Source of the DNA: Stutzerimonas sp. S1
GTDB taxonomy: Bacteria > Pseudomonadota > Gammaproteobacteria > Pseudomonadales > Pseudomonadaceae
Length of the DNA: 64,000 bases
Assembly (NCBI RefSeq): GCF_025966695.1
Contig: NZ_JAOEIY010000008.1
Coordinates: 1 to 64,000 of the forward strand
Direction: 5' to 3'
Numbering within the stretch: the stretch's first letter is position 1; the number at the start of each line of letters is the position of its first letter. The notes under the pieces were generated by a model. It had not been told where the DNA came from, ran no database searches, and saw only the letters and a program-made list of their open reading frames with translations. The translations under genes were made by a program, and so were the position numbers. This document shows positions 1 through 55,735 of this stretch, piece by piece.

Positions 1-74
1 TCGCCGTCGGCGAAGGCGCCAAGGCCTCGCTGAGTGCCTTCGATCACCTGATCCGCACCTCCGCGCCGGCCTGA
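1..74 (+). CDS. ahpF: AhpF, alkyl hydroperoxide reductase flavoprotein subunit (3' end only)
   Basis: Only the last 23 codons and the TGA stop lie in the window. The visible tail, with GEGAKASLSAFDHLIRT near its end, is almost identical to the well-known C-terminus of AhpF, the FAD- and NADH-dependent disulfide reductase that recharges the peroxiredoxin AhpC. The tail belongs to the NAD/FAD-binding part of the protein. A strong hairpin terminator follows, so this gene ends its transcription unit. The rest of the gene and any ahpC partner lie outside the window. The identification rests on a short but very characteristic segment. Confidence 0.85.
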   Translation, partial: AVGEGAKASLSAFDHLIRTSAPA

Positions 75-90
75 CCGCTGCGTGAACAAA

Positions 91-131
91 CAAAAGGGGA
101 GCAGCCGCTAGGTTGCTCCCCTTTTGGTTTT
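91..131 (+). terminator. Intrinsic terminator of ahpF
   Basis: A perfect 13-bp stem (91-103 with 114-126) encloses a 10-base loop and is followed by a T-rich run (128-132). It lies 16 bp after the ahpF stop. The stem begins with four A and ends with four T, so it can also stop the convergent diguanylate cyclase transcript coming from the other strand. Confidence 0.9.
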
Positions 132-147
132 TGCTACAGACCTGCTT

Positions 148-1518
148 TCAGTCGGCGTGCAGCACACAGCGATTGCGCCCGCCGTGCTTGGCCTGATAAA
201 GCGCCTGATCGGCCTGTTGCAGCAGGCGTTCGTAATCCGGATGGCCATCGTGCACCGCCATGCCGATGCTGACGGTCACGTTCAGTCCGTCGCCATTGGG
301 CAGGCGGAAATGTTCGCGGGCGATGCGCTCTCGCAGCTTTTCCGCGGCAGCAAACGCTTTGTCGCCAGCGATATCCACCAAGACCAGCAGAAACTCCTCC
401 CCGCCCAGACGGAACGCATAATCGCCGCCACGGGTGTTGCTGGCCAGTACCGCCGCGATCTGTTGCAGAACGAGATCGCCAGCATCATGACCATGGGTGT
501 CATTGATGCGTTTGAAGTGATCCACATCGATGGCCAGAACGCCGAAAGTGTTGTTTGACTGACGGGCATAGAGCACTTCCTTGGCCATCACCACCGGCAG
601 GAACTTGCGATTGAGTAGCCGCGTCAGCACGTCACGGCCGGCTTCCAGATCGTTGGCCTGCTCGAACAGGCTGTCGAGCAGGAACTTGATCGAGCGGGTC
701 CGCTCGCGGATCTGATGCAGCTTGGCCAGACGCTCGCCGGCGTCCTGCAGCGTGGCGATGGCCTTGAGCTCGTCATCGATCCGTTCGATGTACTCAAGGA
801 TGCTTGCGCTTTCCGGCGAGCCCTGAAAAGCGTGGGACGCCTTGTGGCGGAACCACAGGCCGAACTCGGATCCCGCCAGTTGCGGCAATGCTCCGCTCAG
901 GTTGCCGACGGCCAGGTCGAACATCAGCTGGTTCTCCCAATCCAGCAGTGCAGCACGCTGGCGCTCCTTCTCGACGCCGATGTTCTGTGAGACGGAGAAC
1001 AGTCGGTAGGCCTCCTCTGCCCGCGAATTGCGGTCGTGAGACTGCGAGTAGGCGAAGCAGATGATTTCCACGGCCAGATCGATCAGGTCCGTGCCCATGC
1101 GCGCGGCCTTGCGCCGAACTGGCTCGTCGAGATCGCGCTGTTCCAGCAGCTGGCGCAGACGCCCCTTGAGCGAGCGGGAGCCACGCAGCACGAGGCTGAC
1201 CGGAATTTCTATACGCGCATGGATCTCCCCGATCTTACGTTGCAGGTCGACGACCGCGTCGAGATCGCTATGTGCGGTCGAGGAGCATACCGTCACGATC
1301 CAGCTCTGCATGGACTTGCCGAGGCGGTTTTTGACCTGCTCGTGAGACAAAAAGCTGGCCGAATGGGGATCGGCAAGCATCTGCGTATAGAAATGCTCGG
1401 CCAGTTCGGCGCTCTTGTCTTCCGCAACGGCCTGCAACGCCGTGGCGGCGTCAACGGGATAGCCGTCCAGCAGGCGCAGCCATTCGGCGACCAGCTGGTG
1501 ATTGGGTATTTGCTGCAT
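148..1518 (-). CDS. Globin-coupled diguanylate cyclase (DosC/YddV-like heme oxygen sensor)
   Basis: This 456-residue cytosolic protein has an N-terminal sensor-globin domain (about 1-155), a middle region (about 180-290) and a C-terminal GGDEF domain (about 295-455). In the globin part, His100 in KIGEIHARIEIP sits where the proximal heme ligand is expected, and Tyr44 sits at the distal position. The active site is GGEEF at 372-376. RGGD at 363-366 is spaced like an inhibitory product-binding site. The middle region has conserved-looking Trp/His residues (LWFRHKASHAF) that might bind a metal; that is a guess. The inferred role is oxygen-dependent synthesis of cyclic di-GMP. It lies 54 bp downstream of plsC on the same strand and ends against the ahpF terminator. 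No phosphodiesterase domain is present. Confidence 0.88.
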   Translation of the reverse strand: MQQIPNHQLVAEWLRLLDGYPVDAATALQAVAEDKSAELAEHFYTQMLADPHSASFLSHEQVKNRLGKSMQSWIVTVCSSTAHSDLDAVVDLQRKIGEIHARIEIPVSLVLRGSRSLKGRLRQLLEQRDLDEPVRRKAARMGTDLIDLAVEIICFAYSQSHDRNSRAEEAYRLFSVSQNIGVEKERQRAALLDWENQLMFDLAVGNLSGALPQLAGSEFGLWFRHKASHAFQGSPESASILEYIERIDDELKAIATLQDAGERLAKLHQIRERTRSIKFLLDSLFEQANDLEAGRDVLTRLLNRKFLPVVMAKEVLYARQSNNTFGVLAIDVDHFKRINDTHGHDAGDLVLQQIAAVLASNTRGGDYAFRLGGEEFLLVLVDIAGDKAFAAAEKLRERIAREHFRLPNGDGLNVTVSIGMAVHDGHPDYERLLQQADQALYQAKHGGRNRCVLHAD

Positions 1519-5971: not shown

Positions 5972-6529
5972 ATGCCACGTTGTGCCTGGTGCGGCACGGA
6001 TCCGCTGTACATCGACTACCACGATCGTGAGTGGGGCGTGCCGACTCGCGATTCGCAGGTGCTGTTCGAGTTTCTTCTGCTCGAAGCCTTCCAGGCCGGC
6101 CTGTCGTGGATCACCGTGTTGCGCAAGCGCGAACGCTACCGGCAGGTGTTGTTCGGCTTCGATGCCGAGCGCCTGGCGCGCATGAGCGATGCCGAAATCG
6201 ACGAGCGCCTGCAGGACCCCGGCATCATCCGCAACCGGCGCAAGCTCGAGGCTGCGCGCAGCAACGCGCGCGCCTGGCTGCAGCTGGAAGACCCGGTGGG
6301 GTTTGTCTGGTCTTTCGTCGGCGGCGCGCCGAAGATCAACCGGTTCGAAAGCATCGATCAGGTGCCGGCGGTCACGCCCGAGGCCGAGGCGATGAGCAAG
6401 GCGTTGAAGAAGGCCGGTTTCAGCTTCGTCGGGCCGACTATCTGTTACGCCTACATGCAGGCGTGCGGCCTGGTCATGGACCATCTGGTCGATTGCCAGC
6501 GCCATGCTGTGCTGGCCGATACCGATTGA
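5972..6529 (+). CDS. tag: DNA-3-methyladenine glycosylase I
   Basis: Tag excises 3-methyladenine from alkylated DNA as the first step of base-excision repair. The 185-residue protein begins with the family signature PRCAWCG...YHDREWGVP and carries the expected zinc ligands: Cys4 and His17 near the N-terminus, and the C-terminal His and Cys in MDHLVDC. The internal motif [14 protein letters not shown] is also typical. The ATG has a clean AAGGAG ribosome binding site 5 bp upstream. It is transcribed divergently from glyQ. Confidence 0.96.
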
Positions 6530-6642
6530 GTAGGTGCGGCACGGCTGGCCTTGCCAGGATGTGCAGCCGTTGCTGCCGCCGTGCCTGAACGCTGGTGCCG
6601 GTTGCAGGTAGACTAGGCGACCTGAAAATTTCGGAGTGCGGT

Positions 6643-7530
6643 GTGGAAAAGCTCAAAGGTGCGTTGGTGGTCGGCTCCCTGCGGCTCTTCGCTCGACTGC
6701 CCTGGCGCATGGTCCAGGGCCTGGGCTCGCTGATCGGCTGGCTGATGTGGAAGCTACCCAATCGTTCGCGCGAAGTGGCGCGGATCAATCTGCACAAGTG
6801 CTTCCCCGAGCTGAGCCCGGCGGAACTCGACGCCCTGCTCGGCCGCACCCTGCGTGAAACCGGCATGACCTTCACCGAAAGCGCCTGCGCCTGGATCTGG
6901 CCGGCGGAAAAGACCCTGAGACTGGTGCGTGAGGTCGAAGGGCTCGAGGTGCTGCAGGCGGCGCTGGCCTCGGGCAAGGGCGTGGTCGGCATCACCAGCC
7001 ACCTTGGCAATTGGGAAGTGCTCAACCACTTCTATTGCGCGCAATGCAAACCGATCATCTTCTACCGGCCGCCGAAGTTGAAGGCGGTGGACGAGCTGTT
7101 GCAGCAGCAGCGTGTGCAGCTGGGCAATCGGGTTGCGCCATCGACCAAGGAAGGCATTCTCAGCGTCATCAAGGAAGTACGTCGCGGTGGTGCAGTAGGC
7201 ATTCCTGCCGATCCCGAACCCAGCGAAGGTAGCGGTATATTTGTGCCCTTCTTCGCCACCCGGGCGCTGACCAGCAAGTTCGTCCCGGGGATGCTCGCCG
7301 GCGGCAAGGCCGTGGGCGTGTTCCTCCACGCGTTGCGCCTGGAGGACGGTTCGGGTTTCAAGGTGATCCTCGAGGCGGCGCCCGACGGGATGTACAGCGA
7401 AGACGCCGAAACCGGTGTGGCAGCGATGAGCGCGATGATCGAGAAGTACGTGCGCGCCTATCCGAGCCAGTACATGTGGACGATGAAGCGCTTCAAGAAG
7501 CGTCCGCCGGGTGAGAAACGCTGGTACTGA
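6643..7530 (+). CDS. Lipid A biosynthesis acyltransferase (LpxL/HtrB family)
   Basis: This 295-residue membrane-associated enzyme belongs to the late lipid A acyltransferases that add secondary acyl chains to Kdo2-lipid A. The catalytic HX4E motif is in SHLGNWEV, followed by the family's YRPPK and FVPFF elements. I choose the GTG at 6643, preceded by CGGAG 6 bp upstream, because VEKLKGALVVGSLRLFARLP matches the amphipathic N-terminus of the family. The frame opens earlier, at 6595, without support. Which acyl chain it adds cannot be read from the sequence. Pseudomonas has two or more paralogs. Confidence 0.88.
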   Translation: MEKLKGALVVGSLRLFARLPWRMVQGLGSLIGWLMWKLPNRSREVARINLHKCFPELSPAELDALLGRTLRETGMTFTESACAWIWPAEKTLRLVREVEGLEVLQAALASGKGVVGITSHLGNWEVLNHFYCAQCKPIIFYRPPKLKAVDELLQQQRVQLGNRVAPSTKEGILSVIKEVRRGGAVGIPADPEPSEGSGIFVPFFATRALTSKFVPGMLAGGKAVGVFLHALRLEDGSGFKVILEAAPDGMYSEDAETGVAAMSAMIEKYVRAYPSQYMWTMKRFKKRPPGEKRWY

Positions 7531-7567
7531 GCGGGCCAGACAAGAACGACAACAAGGACGAGCGACC

Positions 7568-7834
7568 ATGAACAACCAACGTCAGTATCCGCGCACCAAC
7601 ATGAAATGTCGGATTCGCATCTGCCATCCCGCGTTTGGCGAGCTCTTCGCGCAAACCCGTGATCTGTCCGACGGTGGCGTCTACATCAAGCACCCTGAGC
7701 TGGCGGCTCTCACCCCGGGCAGCGTGGTCACCGGACAGGTGCAGGATCTGCCCATCCCCGCGCCGGTATTGCAGCTGGAAGTGATGCGGGTGGATGCAGA
7801 GGGTGCCGGGCTGCGCTTTCTCACCGAAGAGTGA
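7568..7834 (+). CDS. PilZ-domain cyclic di-GMP binding protein
   Basis: This 88-residue single-domain protein carries both parts of the PilZ binding signature: Arg5-x3-Arg9 (RQYPR) and DxSxxG at 32-37 (DLSDGG). Its size is about one PilZ domain with no extra module, so it probably acts as an adaptor that binds cyclic di-GMP and then a partner protein. The ATG is preceded by AAGGA. It follows the lpxL-like gene by 37 bp and probably shares its transcript. The target is unknown. Confidence 0.85.
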   Translation: MNNQRQYPRTNMKCRIRICHPAFGELFAQTRDLSDGGVYIKHPELAALTPGSVVTGQVQDLPIPAPVLQLEVMRVDAEGAGLRFLTEE

Positions 7835-51465: not shown

Positions 51466-51876
51466 CTAGTAGCAGTGCTCGGCCTTGGCCTCGACCAGCA
51501 CGTTGCGCTGCTCGTCGAGCAGCCAGCCCTGCGGGGTGAAGCCGAGCGAGCGGGCCTGGAACAGGTAGCGCTTGCCGGCCTCGAAGTGGTCGTAGCGCAC
51601 TATCATGCTGCAGCGCATGGTCTGGGTTTCGGCGAACAGACCGAGGCCGCCGCCACTGACTTCGAATTCGTAGTTCGCCTCGAGTTCATGACTGCCCGGC
51701 GGCACCTGGAAATAGCGGCCGTCGTAGGTGCGCTTCTTGTCCAGGCGGTCGGCCATGAAGATGTCGATGGTCTGCGCGCGCAGATCGACCCAGGCCATCT
51801 GCGGATCGTGCGGTGGCAGCGGGCTGGCGCAGCCGGCCAGGGCGAGGACGGACAGGAGAACGAGCGTCAGGCGCAT
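51466..51876 (-). CDS. Lipoprotein of unknown function (paralog A)
   Basis: This 136-residue protein has a lipobox (LALAGC, Cys16) after a hydrophobic leader, so it is a lipoprotein. The mature part shares layout with its neighbour at 51985: AWVDLR, DGRYFQVPPGSHELE and a conserved C-terminal Cys. No catalytic motif is seen. It might be a periplasmic envelope-stress or scaffold protein; that is a guess. Confidence 0.75.
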   Translation of the reverse strand: MRLTLVLLSVLALAGCASPLPPHDPQMAWVDLRAQTIDIFMADRLDKKRTYDGRYFQVPPGSHELEANYEFEVSGGGLGLFAETQTMRCSMIVRYDHFEAGKRYLFQARSLGFTPQGWLLDEQRNVLVEAKAEHCY

Positions 51877-51984: not shown

Positions 51985-52410
51985 TCAGCGTTCGGCGAGG
52001 TTGCCGCAGCCCTTCTCCTCGGCGCGCGCCAGCACGTACTGGTGTTCGTCGTAGAGCTTGGCCCACGGGCGAAAGCCGTAGCCACCGGCGACTAGGCGGT
52101 AGCGGGCGCCGGCGTTGAAGCGGTCGTAGGCCAGGGTCAGCTTGCAATCGCGCGACAGTGGCGCGCTGGCCGGGCCGATGTTGCTGCCCTCGACCTGGAA
52201 GCGGTAGCGCATCTCCAGCGTGCGGCTGCCCGGCTCGACCTGGAAGTAGCGGCCATCGTCCAGCGCCTTGCCGTCCACCGCCAGCGCCTGCAGCTGCGTT
52301 TCGCCATGCGGCCGGAGGTCGACCCAGGCCTGGCTGGGGTCCGGCGTGGGCATCCACAGCGAACAGCCGGCGAGAGACGAGAGAAGGAAGGCAATGACGA
52401 AACCGCGCAT
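51985..52410 (-). CDS. Lipoprotein of unknown function (paralog B)
   Basis: This 141-residue protein has a lipobox (LSSLAGC, Cys16) and the same layout as paralog A: AWVDLRPHGE, DGRYFQVEPGSRTLE, FNAGARYRL and a cysteine near the end. The two genes are 108 bp apart on the same strand, so they are tandem duplicates that have diverged considerably. The function is unknown. Confidence 0.75.
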   Translation of the reverse strand: MRGFVIAFLLSSLAGCSLWMPTPDPSQAWVDLRPHGETQLQALAVDGKALDDGRYFQVEPGSRTLEMRYRFQVEGSNIGPASAPLSRDCKLTLAYDRFNAGARYRLVAGGYGFRPWAKLYDEHQYVLARAEEKGCGNLAER

Positions 52411-52560
52411 CTGGGAGCTCCGACCGGGCAGGCAGCGTCCCGGCTAGCGAATCAGGAAAGCGAATATCCGGCGGCAGGATTGCAATCCACCGCGCGGCCT
52501 TTGTAGGGTGCCGGCAGCACCTAGCACGACGCCTGTCCCCGACTCTTACCGGTGTTCCCG

Positions 52561-53622
52561 ATGTCGAAGCCCAACGCCGCCTTGATCGACAGCTGCGCCC
52601 TGCATTGGGTTCCGCTGCTGCTTGCCGTTAGTCTGAATGGTTGCAGCAGCTATTACGGCCAACTGGCGGTTGGCCAGGCGCAGCTGCTGTCCCAGCGCGA
52701 GCCGATCGCCCGGGTCGTCGCCGACGACAGCCGTGATCCGGCCCTGCGCCAGCGCCTGGCGCGGGTGCTCGAGGCGCGCAGCTTCGCCAGCTCGACGCTG
52801 GGTCTGCCGGACAATGACAGCTATCGGTTGTACGCGGATATCCAGCGGCCCTACGTGGTGTGGAACCTGTTCGCCAGCGAAGCATTCTCCGTGGATGCGC
52901 TGGAGCACTGTTTCCCGATTGCCGGCTGCGTGGCCTATCGCGGCTATTACCGCCAGGGTGCGGCGCGCGCTGCGGCCGCACGACTGCAGGTGCAGGGGCT
53001 GGACACCCACGTGGCGGGCGTCGAAGCCTATTCGACCCTCGGCTGGTTTGCCGATCCGTTGCTCAGCTCGATGTTGCGGCGCAACGATGAGCAACTGGCG
53101 GCGCTGGTATTTCACGAGCTGGCGCACCAGCGGCTCTACCTGCCCGGCGACACGGCGTTCAACGAGTCCTACGCCAGTTTCGTCGAGCGTGAGGGGCTGC
53201 AGCAGTGGCGGCGTGAGCGCGGCCTGCCGCCCGTCGATGGCGAGGCACAGCGGCAGTATCGCCAGCTGGTCGAGCTGCTGCTGGCGACCCGGGAGCGACT
53301 GCGCACGCTGTATGCCTCGGGCAAGCCGGACGCCGAGCTGCGTGAGCTGAAGCAGGCGGCGTTCGATCGCCTGCGTCGTGACTATCGCCACCTGCGTGAT
53401 GGTGTCTGGGGCGGCTCGCGGCGTTTCGACGGCTGGTTCGCGCGGCCGCTGAACAACGCCAGCCTGCTGCCATTTGGCCTGTACGACCGCTGGGTGCCGG
53501 CGTTCGCCGCGCTGTTCGAGCAGGTCGGCCGCGACTGGTCGCGCTTCCATGCAGCGGTCGCGACGTTGGCTCAGCTGCCTGCCGACGAGCGGGAAGCCAA
53601 GCTCGCGCAACTGGCCGACTGA
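52561..53622 (+). CDS. Lipoprotein putative aminopeptidase/metallopeptidase (HExxH)
   Basis: This 353-residue protein has a lipobox-like leader (SLNGC, Cys28) and a predicted peptidase core with HELAH at 185-189 (HExxH) and NESYA at 201-205, where the Glu could be the third zinc ligand. This resembles the group of uncharacterised predicted aminopeptidases. I use the ATG at 52561; a GTG at 52552 is also possible. It is probably bound to the outer or inner membrane facing the periplasm. Confidence 0.78.
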   Translation: MSKPNAALIDSCALHWVPLLLAVSLNGCSSYYGQLAVGQAQLLSQREPIARVVADDSRDPALRQRLARVLEARSFASSTLGLPDNDSYRLYADIQRPYVVWNLFASEAFSVDALEHCFPIAGCVAYRGYYRQGAARAAAARLQVQGLDTHVAGVEAYSTLGWFADPLLSSMLRRNDEQLAALVFHELAHQRLYLPGDTAFNESYASFVEREGLQQWRRERGLPPVDGEAQRQYRQLVELLLATRERLRTLYASGKPDAELRELKQAAFDRLRRDYRHLRDGVWGGSRRFDGWFARPLNNASLLPFGLYDRWVPAFAALFEQVGRDWSRFHAAVATLAQLPADEREAKLAQLAD

Positions 53623-53835
53623 GCAAGCGAAACGGCGCGGCCTGTTGCCGTGGGCGTTACGCGCCGTTATCGCTCTTGCGTCGAAAATCTCCAATCTCCC
53701 GTTCATCGGCTGCGATACGCCTGTCCGCTGAACGGTGCGAATCGTTTGCCGAAGCCTCCGGTCCTCTTTATTAGGTCGCCGATTCAAACGGCGGCGATCC
53801 CCATGCCTGATTCCACGCATAACAACGGAGGCTCC

Positions 53836-55005
53836 ATGGAGACCCTATCCGGAATTTTCGACAATAAAGGCACGCCCCTGGAGAAGCAGAAGTTCACCTG
53901 GAAGGAGATGGCCGGCAAGCCGATCAGCAAGCTCGATGACGATGCGTTTACCCGTGTGCGCATCATCCTCATGAACGGCGTCGAGACGGATGCCCTGCGC
54001 CTGTCCCACGGCATCGCCCGCTTCAACAAGGAACTGCGCCTGCCGCTGGCGCAGATTCGCCGCGCCGAGCAGCACCAGGCGACCATGATCAACTGGCTGA
54101 TCGGCGCCGACCACTCGCCGCTGGAAACCACCGTCGCCTACGAGCAGGTCGCCATCGAGGTGACCGCCGCCGTGGCGCAGAACGAGCCCGATCCCTACCA
54201 GGCGCAGACCTATCGCTTCGGTCTGCTCGAGGACTTCGACCATCTGTACCGCTACTCGGCGATGCTCGACCGCCTCGAGGGCAAGGATGCCAACAACATC
54301 CTGCAGGGCTACACCGACATCGTGCCGGGACGGAAAACCTCCGAGCACCACCGGCACCCGGAGAACGACATCCGCGACAATTACGAGAAGGACAGCGCCG
54401 CGCTGATCACCAAGATCCACGCGGCGCTGATCACCGGCGCGGAATACCAGACCCACGACTACTACCAGAACATCGGCCCGCTGTTCGCCGATCCGCTGGC
54501 GCGCCAGTTGTACGCCGAGATCGCTTCGGTGGAGGAGCAGCACGTGACCCAGTACGGCTCGCTCTCCGACCCCAGCGAAAGCCATATCGAGAAGTGGCTG
54601 GTGCACGAGGCGATGGAGGTCTACATGTACGCCAGCTGCGCCGAGCAGGAAACCAATCCGCGCATCAAGGCCATGTGGGAGCGTTTCCTCGACTACGAAC
54701 TGGGCCACCTCAACGTCGCCTGCGAGTGGTTCAAGAAGCTCGAGGGCCGCGATCCGGCCGAAATCCTCGCCGGCCCGCTGCCGAAGATGGTCGAGTTCAA
54801 GAGCCAGCGCGATTTCGTCCGCCAGGTGCTGGCCGCCGAGGTCAACCTGCGCACCGCCGGCCCGGCCTACGTGGACAAGGCCAAAGAGCCGCAATCGTCG
54901 CTGGATTACCGCAACCATCTCGCTTCGGAAGGCCTCGCCTCGGACATCGTCTCGGCGGGTTACCAGTGGGCGCCGGGTGGCGAACTGATGCGCAAGGCTT
55001 CCTGA
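53836..55005 (+). CDS. Large ferritin-like protein, first of a pair
   Basis: This 389-residue cytosolic protein is largely alpha-helical with carboxylate/histidine pairs that could bind a di-iron site: E132 with H136, E233 with H236 and E288 with H291. It has the general appearance of ferritin-like four-helix bundle proteins, perhaps two bundles in one chain given its length. The ATG at 53836 has GGAGG 6 bp upstream. It lies 10 bp before the second ferritin-like gene. Neither role nor metal is known to me. Confidence 0.7.
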   Translation: METLSGIFDNKGTPLEKQKFTWKEMAGKPISKLDDDAFTRVRIILMNGVETDALRLSHGIARFNKELRLPLAQIRRAEQHQATMINWLIGADHSPLETTVAYEQVAIEVTAAVAQNEPDPYQAQTYRFGLLEDFDHLYRYSAMLDRLEGKDANNILQGYTDIVPGRKTSEHHRHPENDIRDNYEKDSAALITKIHAALITGAEYQTHDYYQNIGPLFADPLARQLYAEIASVEEQHVTQYGSLSDPSESHIEKWLVHEAMEVYMYASCAEQETNPRIKAMWERFLDYELGHLNVACEWFKKLEGRDPAEILAGPLPKMVEFKSQRDFVRQVLAAEVNLRTAGPAYVDKAKEPQSSLDYRNHLASEGLASDIVSAGYQWAPGGELMRKAS

Positions 55006-55015
55006 GGAGACGAAC

Positions 55016-55735
55016 ATGGCTACTGCAGCGAAAGTAGGTACCAATTACACCGGCGTGCAGATGTCGCCGAAGGACACCAAGCGCCTGCTCGAGGCGGTCA
55101 ACGAGATTCACCCGGACGTGCCGGGCGACGAACACGGGATGCTGGTCGAGCGCGCCGAACGCTATGAAGAGGCCGATCGCATCGGCTCCGTGCCGGTGCC
55201 GGGTTCGGCCAAGGGCATGCTCAAGACCGGCTTCGACATGATGAAAGGCAAGAGCCCCGAGGTGTTCATCGACAAGCTCGGCGAGCGCCTGGCATTCGAG
55301 CGCAACGGTGTGCGTCTGTACGAGGCGATGATCGCCAAGGCACGCAACCTCGATTCCGGCAGCGCGCTGGTGGACGAGTTGCAGCACATCCGTGACGAAG
55401 AGTTCGAGCACATGATGCTGGTGCATGCGGCGCTGGAAAAACTCGGCGCCGATCCCACCGCGCAGACGCCCTGTGCCGATGTGGCCGGGGTCATGGCGAT
55501 GGGCATCATGCAGGTGCTGACCGATCCGCGGACCAACATCCCGCAGTGTCTGAATGCCCTGCTGACCGCGGAGCTGGCGGACAACGCCGCCTGGGAACTG
55601 CTGATCGAACTGGCGCAGGCGGCGGGCCATCCGAACATTGCCGACAGCTTCGCCAAGGCCAAGACCCAGGAGGACGACCACCTGCTGAAGATCAAGACGC
55701 TGATGCGCCGTGATCTGATCCTGCAGACCAAGTAA
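55016..55735 (+). CDS. Ferritin-like protein, second of a pair
   Basis: This 239-residue protein has the four-helix ferritin-like pattern, with DKLGERLAFERNGVRLYE, an ExxH in RDEEFEHMM and another in TQEDDHLLK, suggesting a di-iron centre. It follows the larger ferritin-like gene by 10 bp with its own AGGAG site, so the two should be co-expressed. It might form a mixed complex with its partner. A terminator follows. Confidence 0.75.
   Translation: MATAAKVGTNYTGVQMSPKDTKRLLEAVNEIHPDVPGDEHGMLVERAERYEEADRIGSVPVPGSAKGMLKTGFDMMKGKSPEVFIDKLGERLAFERNGVRLYEAMIAKARNLDSGSALVDELQHIRDEEFEHMMLVHAALEKLGADPTAQTPCADVAGVMAMGIMQVLTDPRTNIPQCLNALLTAELADNAAWELLIELAQAAGHPNIADSFAKAKTQEDDHLLKIKTLMRRDLILQTK

Follow-up and report, generated by a model that had tools for sequence, protein, structure and literature searches.

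The encapsulated ferritin EncFtn is built of two-helix hairpins that carry the ligands Glu32, Glu62, and His65, with the site lying between two chains, and the duplication of a hairpin has been proposed as the origin of the ferritin fold (PMC5012862). In this work, we describe a pair of adjacent genes from Stutzerimonas sp. S1 that can be compared with this and other ferritin-like systems. They are located within a stretch of 64,000 nucleotides (contig NZ_JAOEIY010000008.1, positions 1 to 64,000), which in its whole length will be referred to as the window. Gene A (53836..55005, + strand) encodes a 389 amino acid (aa) protein which, based upon its open reading frame (ORF), its AlphaFold2 (AF2) model and its relatives, is predicted to be an interlaced double ferritin-like protein, whereas gene B (55016..55735, + strand) encodes a ferritin-like partner of 239 aa. 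The two genes are separated by an intergenic gap of 10 bases, and a GGAGG sequence is found ahead of the start of A at 53827-53831. An earlier note on this DNA had proposed two proteins of 389 and 239 residues encoded 10 bp apart, and both ORFs were confirmed where it had placed them. The results described below suggest that A would be a duplicated ferritin-like chain whose halves exchange helix pairs, giving one working and one decayed site.

Gene A was found near full length and free of stop codons in 21 of 38 genomes (that of the window included) and as a fragment in one more, and B is present in the same 22 genomes. As both are kept across these genomes and in relatives elsewhere, A and B are genes and not chance frames. 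A profile-guided scan covering one genome per species for 84,980 species gave at least 586 pattern matches, of which at least 553 encode an A relative, and the best 80 of these stretches were kept as a set of loci. Judging from the names of the organisms, these best 80 loci come from the Pseudomonadota, Myxococcota, Bdellovibrionota, Nitrospira, Acidobacteriota, Chloroflexota, and Actinobacteria, and the named relatives that lie nearest to the window A in the tree are Stutzerimonas kunmingensis, S. xanthomarina, and S. stutzeri. In wider genome samples, each of which includes the genome on which it was centred, A was detected in 5 of 190 genomes from the class of genome G167 (taken here as Alphaproteobacteria), 22 of 197 from the class of a Streptomyces, and 28 of 117 from the phylum of a Myxococcus. 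Of seven records in a plasmid collection that match A, three label the gene "hypothetical protein" and four list no gene, and both B matches are labelled "ferritin-like domain-containing protein."

The analyses below are based upon three sets of aligned sequences. The 68-row alignment of A contains the window and 67 of the 80 loci (L023-L026, L028, L030, L031, L055, L058, L083, L087, L094, and L097 being left out), and that of B, also of 68 rows, joins the window sequence with 67 of the 73 B sequences, all but L023, L025, L026, L028, L031, and L087. A larger set of 133 A rows omits duplicates fetched from one and the same place, two fragments (L118 and L120), and L055, L083, and L094; 131 of its sequences are different, the identical pairs being L085/L175 and L086/L176. 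In the second of these pairs, L086 comes from a record titled Comamonas sp. KCTC 72670 and L176 from the Myxococcus phylum sample, and the former record may carry the wrong organism name or a foreign contig.

The AF2 model of A, obtained with the 68-sequence input, has a predicted local distance difference test (pLDDT) score of 93.2 and a predicted template modelling (pTM) score of 0.92. Eight bundle helices are assigned in this model by DSSP (residues 37-63, 65-86, 95-116, 120-148, 190-216, 220-241, 250-271, and 275-303). The linkers between helices 2 and 3 and between helices 6 and 7 are 8 residues long, whereas helices 4 and 5 are joined by a crossover of 41 residues (149-189). Ferritins have a long crossover between their helices B and C, and the long 4-5 crossover with short 2-3 and 6-7 linkers is thus as expected for a ferritin built of helices 3-6. 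When the structures on the list from Foldseek were aligned to A with VIA-align 2, the ferritin-like bundles matched it mainly in two ways. One covers residues 94..246 (mini-bacterioferritin 9qq4_B, Z 13.3, root mean square deviation (rmsd) 1.9, 119 residues aligned), and the other extends across residues about 32..306 (apobacterioferritin 4cvp, Z 12.7, rmsd 2.7, 129 aligned). In the model, the two bundles of A therefore appear to be interlaced, with helices 3-6 forming bundle I and helices 1, 2, 7, and 8 forming bundle II; the ranges of the structure matches, the linker lengths and the ligand statistics given below all favor this arrangement over one in which helices 1-4 would form one bundle and helices 5-8 the next. 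Bundle I, as delimited by VIA-align, DSSP, and the conservation of its site, is contiguous and corresponds to residues 94-246 (54115..54573, + strand). The first half of bundle II is made up of helices 1-2 (residues 33-88, with E50 and E78xxQ81; 53932..54099, + strand) and the second half of helices 7-8 (residues 250-306, with E258 and E288xxH291; 54583..54753, + strand), both delimited by the VIA-align match across residues about 33..306, the model and the alignment. Four-helix bundles are thus predicted with high confidence for A and, as described later, for B, and both predicted structures fall in the ferritin-type four-helix-bundle superfamily, that of A with borderline Z values. The earlier suggestion that the larger protein could contain two bundles agrees with the model in their number; the bundles are apparently interlaced and one full ligand set is present.

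When a profile of residues 30-150 of A was compared with that of residues 183-306, they matched over 120 columns with an E value of 2.3e-5 (probability 76), whereas the reversed control gave a weaker match (E 0.057). Based upon this difference, the A chain is probably an internal tandem duplication, in whose register the residues E50/E203, E78/E233, Q81/H236, E103/E258, D133/E288, and H136/H291 are paired. In comparisons of individual hairpins, helices 3-4 matched helices 7-8 with E 5.2e-4 (reversed control 0.012), helices 1-2 versus 5-6 gave E 0.053 (reversed control 0.045), and the remaining four comparisons gave E values of 0.11-0.30. Two rounds of hairpin duplication are thus unsupported by the sequences, and the support is limited to a duplication of the A halves.

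The carboxylate and ExxH patterns noticed earlier in the two proteins proved to be real and conserved, in all 68 rows of B and, for the middle two groups of A, in 132 of 133 rows. The four ligand groups of A are E50/E78xxQ81, E103/D133xxH136, E203/E233xxH236, and E258/E288xxH291. The predicted site I combines the middle two (E103, D133xxH136, E203, and E233xxH236, all six identical in 132/133 rows) and has the ligand set E, ExxH, E, ExxH with an Asp (D133) replacing one Glu. The predicted site II combines the outer two (E258, E288xxH291, E50, and E78xxQ81); its position 81 is a His in none of the 133 rows, and Q291 is present in 33 of them. With this swapped pairing, changed ligand cells number 3 of 798 at site I, all in row L093, and 71 of 798 at site II, whereas a grouping by consecutive bundles gives 32 and 42. 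Similarly, the fewest changes needed on the tree are 3 (in one row) and 30 for the swapped pairing and 11 and 22 for the consecutive one. The ligand changes thus fit the swapped pairing better than two successive bundles, and the sequences indicate that A has kept one site (I) and that the other (II) has decayed. Additional invariant positions are found beside site I, viz. E132, D135, and H172 (133/133 rows each) and R166 and T168 (68/68 rows each). Two of these belong to the signature EDFDH (residues 132-136; 54229..54243, + strand), in which E132, D133, D135, and H136 are present in 133/133 rows.

The window A reached the cut-off of no Pfam family, its sole match at E<=1 being to the ribonucleotide reductase small chain (R2, PF00268; E 0.046, 13.5 versus a cut-off of 33.6 bits). 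The Pfam Ferritin family (PF00210) gave no match to it at E<=1 and matched none of the 68 A rows at E<=0.01. Against NCBIfam, the window A had sub-threshold matches only, to encapsulated ferritins (EncB_fam, 17.6 versus 90 bits). In a row-by-row scan, EncB_fam was matched by 32 of the 68 rows (E<=0.01, best E 1.9e-4), and the MbfA iron exporter model showed a sub-threshold match in 12 of 68 (best E 1.8e-5). No relative of A was detected in a profile search of solved structures (best E 0.46, EncB). Single-sequence searches of the Protein Data Bank (PDB) with A and B gave matches at E>=0.076 only, which were taken as chance, and a search of PHROGs gave weak matches for A (E>=0.18) and none for B.

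Protein B passes three Pfam cut-offs, those of Ferritin (PF00210, 30.8 versus 24.5 bits), COQ7 (27.2 versus 23.5), and DUF892 (PF05974, 27.0 versus 23.7), and its assignment to DUF892 is therefore not unique. Its scores for Rubrerythrin (PF02915, 20.8 versus 22.8 bits) and EncB_fam (20.1 versus 90) are below the cut-offs. At E<=1e-3, Ferritin was matched by 47 and DUF892 by 25 of the 68 B rows. The earlier statement that the proteins do not look like classical ferritin thus holds for A, which reaches no Pfam family, but not for B. Among solved structures, the B profile best matched symerythrin (3qhb, E 5.8e-7, profile positions 122-235). The AF2 model of B (pLDDT 90.3) has helices at residues 81-111, 116-142, 152-169, 175-202, and 206-238, preceded by an N-terminal extension (residues 1-80) with three shorter helices and conserved positions. 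Residues 81-238 (55256..55729, + strand) form the four-helix bundle predicted from the model, the alignment and fold matches, with a site made up of E95, E129xxH132, E186, and E219xxH222, and the six ligands E95, E129, H132, E186, E219, and H222 are invariant in 68/68 rows. Their spacing, 34 + 3 and 33 + 3, is close to that of ferritins and bacterioferritins. Bacterioferritins, ferritins, YciF, and YciE are tied among the fold matches of B at Z 18-19 (4cvs, Z 19.4, rmsd 1.9, 147 aligned; 2gs4, Z 18.9, and 3ogh, Z 18.8, for YciF/YciE), and the hetero-oligomeric ferritins 9bts_a and 9h1u_M are also among them. The best matches for B by Foldseek were 7tmv_B (E 2.9e-3) and then the YciF structure 2gs4 (E 4.4e-3).

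A search for co-occurrence showed that the coupling of A with B is strong and extends across phyla. In 129 of the 133 rows, a gene for a second four-helix protein lies no more than 1.5 kb from A. This partner is B in 99 rows, a hemerythrin in 23, and a B-like protein in 7 (five of class fl2 and two of class fl3), and four rows have none. At this same distance, 74 of the best 80 loci have B, five have a hemerythrin but no B, and one has neither; B precedes A in 11 of these 80 loci. As the loci were chosen for encoding A, such counts are uninformative on partners without A, save for the searches for B in the 38 genomes and in 398 genomes sampled from the phylum of the window. In the latter sample, strong B matches (E <1e-40) were found in six genomes, all among the seven with A. 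The seventh, G167, has a hemerythrin downstream and no strong B. A further seven genomes with no A match have only weaker B matches (best E 8e-7 to 9e-4), which are probably other ferritin-like proteins. In the sample from the class of G167, a hemerythrin gene is present 102-697 bases downstream in four of the five complete A genes and none is present in the fifth. In the Myxococcus phylum sample, B is found in 27 of 28 loci, and the sequence of the remaining one (L168) ends about 200 bases past the A match. The 23 actinobacterial loci with a usable A from the Streptomyces class sample have a hemerythrin in 15 (one of which, L126, is the same place as L099), a B-like protein in seven (fl2 in L144-L148, fl3 in L149 and L150), and none seen in one (L140).

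By hhalign, the B profile is similar to those of fl3 (E 2.2e-14), fl2 (E 6.8e-5), and a three-sequence DUF892 profile (E 5.8e-5), whereas it showed no similarity to that of the hemerythrins (E 0.35); all four profiles compared with B came from sequences of these same loci, and Pfam confirmed the identity of eight hemerythrins. The fl2 and fl3 proteins reach no Pfam cut-off. On a quick tree of A, which carries long-branch warnings, the four partner classes need 3 changes, the minimum possible, when the rows with no partner are left out, and the five groups need 7 when those rows are kept.

Some individual loci bear on the pair in other ways. In L122, one of the four hemerythrin loci from the class of G167, the gene directly after A (6497-7642, + strand) encodes a 382 aa protein in which a hemerythrin domain precedes one of the DUF892 type, and DUF4142 proteins are found in two A-hemerythrin gene groups (L124, 7285-7794, + strand; L125, 6322-6840, + strand). 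In Nannocystis pusilla (L083, 7674-9947, + strand), one ORF of 757 aa spans both A and B. This join was not used as Rosetta-stone evidence because the last conserved A stretch, by eye, is out of frame, with a frame shift near the end of A. In G014, a genome of the same genus as the window, a 141 aa ORF (L181, 1344-1769, - strand) joins about the first 52 matched residues of A to about the last 85 of B; it is a deletion remnant in which all of A site I and part of the B site are gone.

Beyond the computed features (fold, duplication, swapped pairing, ligand sets, gene coupling, and partner exchange), we infer a physical complex of A and B, its cellular location, metal and reaction, and a role in stress. 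We give about even chances to the proposal that A and B work in a single di-iron system of the cytoplasm, as two subunits or as two steps, and that this system, in which the partner is exchangeable, would carry out iron, O2 or peroxide chemistry. In this system, site I would bind two Fe (or Fe/Mn), and the reduced Fe(II) (or Fe/Mn) site would most likely react with O2 or H2O2, like ferroxidases and rubrerythrin-type peroxidases. The decayed site II may serve as a scaffold, or as a docking or regulatory surface. B would contribute a second, complete ferritin-type site, and the partner could give or take iron, electrons or O2, a place that would be filled in other lineages by a B-like protein or a hemerythrin. 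The system would probably be used for iron or peroxide protection during stress or slow growth.

A number of observations weigh against this reading. The Foldseek searches with the A and B models gave no PDB match at E<=0.001, and the note supplied with VIA-align rates Z values near 13, as obtained for A, as borderline for helical bundles, for which reason support independent of the model was sought. B and bundle I of A share no profile similarity (E 0.75; reversed control 0.51), and a homology between them was rejected on this account. Regarding the ligands, position 291 alone accounts for 14 of the 30 tree changes at site II, and M50, E81, and Q291 co-occur in 11 rows, which largely represent one lineage rather than independent events as positions 50 and 81 need three changes each; site I is itself broken in L093, a long-branch row. 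The five fl2 partners carry other residues at the places of B H132, E186, E219, and H222, and the two fl3 partners at that of E129. The metal site of the partner is thus not always needed, which tells against a simple relay role. Seven of the 15 actinobacterial hemerythrin genes are on the opposite strand from A, making them neighbors rather than operon mates, and the evidence for partner exchange comes down to few events, the 3 changes counted on the tree. Additionally, A is sporadic, being found in seven of the 398 genomes, and stress-type neighbors are found in a minority of the loci and none of them beside the window pair.

The main rival explanation, which we consider unlikely, is that A is a di-iron oxygenase or oxidase acting on one particular organic compound, comparable to COQ7, aldehyde-deformylating oxygenase or R2-like ligand-binding oxidase. 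B or the hemerythrin would then be an accessory protein that loads iron, delivers electrons or supplies O2. Site I, the one site that is strictly kept, contains D133 and lies beside invariant residues, which suits an enzyme more than a store. Additionally, B passes the COQ7 cut-off, and among the 68 A rows there are weak sub-threshold Pfam matches to Ribonuc_red_sm (five), FA_desaturase_2 (two), Metal_hydrol (one), and COQ7 (one). However, no conserved biosynthetic or electron-transfer neighbor stands out in the top 25 of 148 families among 139 neighbors. It is distinctly improbable that the pair is a sensor or a structural stress protein without turnover, in which site II and the partner would sense O2, peroxide or iron and A would be the effector. 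The decay of site II, the hemerythrin partners and the stress-type DUF892 and KGG neighbors in some loci are in keeping with such a role, but the six site I ligands are kept in nearly every row and neither A nor B of the window has a Pfam signaling domain. Very improbable is an iron store formed by co-assembly of A and B into a mixed ferritin-like oligomer depositing ferric iron, since, despite the bacterioferritins, ferritins (4cvs) and hetero-oligomeric ferritins among the fold matches of B and the MbfA matches of A, the latter with its two fused bundles and C-terminal tail in the model is not a standard cage subunit, its own genome has three other PF00210 proteins, and B is replaced in one genome group by hemerythrins, which are not known to build cages.

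The window pair has as its flanking genes one for a putative aminopeptidase (52552-53622) and, in convergent orientation, those for SCO1 and a UbiA-family prenyltransferase, which are read as part of a cytochrome-oxidase assembly cluster and are taken to show position only. The neighbors in other loci were tallied for at most two neighbors per locus, within 3.5 kb and of no more than 1000 aa, with L023-L031 left out. This tally took 139 of 142, excluding a piece of a broken A in L055 and two Massilia neighbors, and contains four short-chain dehydrogenases, four DUF892, four hemerythrin, three KGG, and two Usp proteins; as a minority signal, these neighbors point to stress genes. DUF892 (YciF-type) genes are located less than 1.5 kb from A in six of the 80 loci, at 1.5-4 kb in one, and at 4-8 kb in none; 51 of these loci extend for about 8 kb to either side, and two of the six close ones fed the DUF892 profile. 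Four A-B loci (L033, L034, L062, and L072) lie within some kb of genes that by eye look like Ku/LigD-type repair and glycogen or trehalose enzymes, a setting that resembles stress islands in other bacteria. Upstream of A, the block GCGAATC ... GGTCC (53737..53769, + strand) seems by eye to be better conserved than the sequence around it when upstream regions of Stutzerimonas type are aligned, and is a possible promoter, which we mention as a lead only. Farther away, two adjoining small lipoprotein-like ORFs (51466-51876 and 51985-52410, - strand) share the stretches AWVDLR and GRYFQV.PGS and by eye have the look of tandem paralogs, the first of them reaching no Pfam family at cut-off.

Although ferritin-like di-iron proteins are a known kind, a pair of interlaced bundles in a protein with an exchangeable partner is apparently new, and no description of the A-B pair or the A family was found by title or start of abstract among the open-access papers listed. 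More tentatively than the di-iron system itself, A may found an unnamed class of ferritin-like enzymes, with four EncFtn-like hairpins per chain and interlaced bundles of lasting asymmetry, one site being catalytic and the other a decayed regulatory or docking site; with an exchangeable four-helix partner (B, B-like or hemerythrin) it would make up a two-component di-iron system in several phyla. The A family, whose window member passes no Pfam or NCBIfam cut-off, is unnamed and extends from the Pseudomonadota and Myxococcota to the Actinobacteria, Nitrospira, and Chloroflexi. Its predicted architecture allows a natural test of the way in which a di-iron protein turns asymmetric after duplication, and the hemerythrin in the place of B provides a direct handle on the partner's job. 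It also tests the hairpin-duplication idea for the ferritin fold; if our interpretation is correct, A would keep within one chain the route proposed for the origin of this fold (PMC5012862).

In comparison with known systems, the HHE hemerythrins resemble B in adjoining A where B is absent, but are unlike it in profile. The erythrin-type iron exporter MbfA is like A in its sub-threshold matches to A rows, but it is absent from the matches of the window A at E<=1, and no membrane part is apparent in the model helices of A, an inference made with no search aimed at membrane segments. Symerythrin is the best match of the B profile, whereas by its Pfam score B is unlike rubrerythrin. YciF and YciE are similar to B in the DUF892 cut-off, fold and profile, and are linked to the A loci by the DUF892 genes nearby in some of them and by the domain fused to the hemerythrin partner in L122; B differs from them in its 80-residue N-terminal extension and in being tied to A. 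Bacterioferritins and ferritins share with B a single bundle, two ExxH motifs and the PF00210 match, and are unlike A, a predicted double bundle with no Pfam match. An encapsulin cargo was rejected, as the shell gene (PF04454) was found in none of the 23 genomes searched, that of the window included, and the NCBIfam cut-off was not reached. Lastly, A differs from EncFtn and EncB in having four hairpins in one chain and in its EncB_fam score. However, three of the A hairpins have the spacing of EncFtn (E, +30 E/D, +3 H; PMC5012862), and in the fourth it is 28 + 3.

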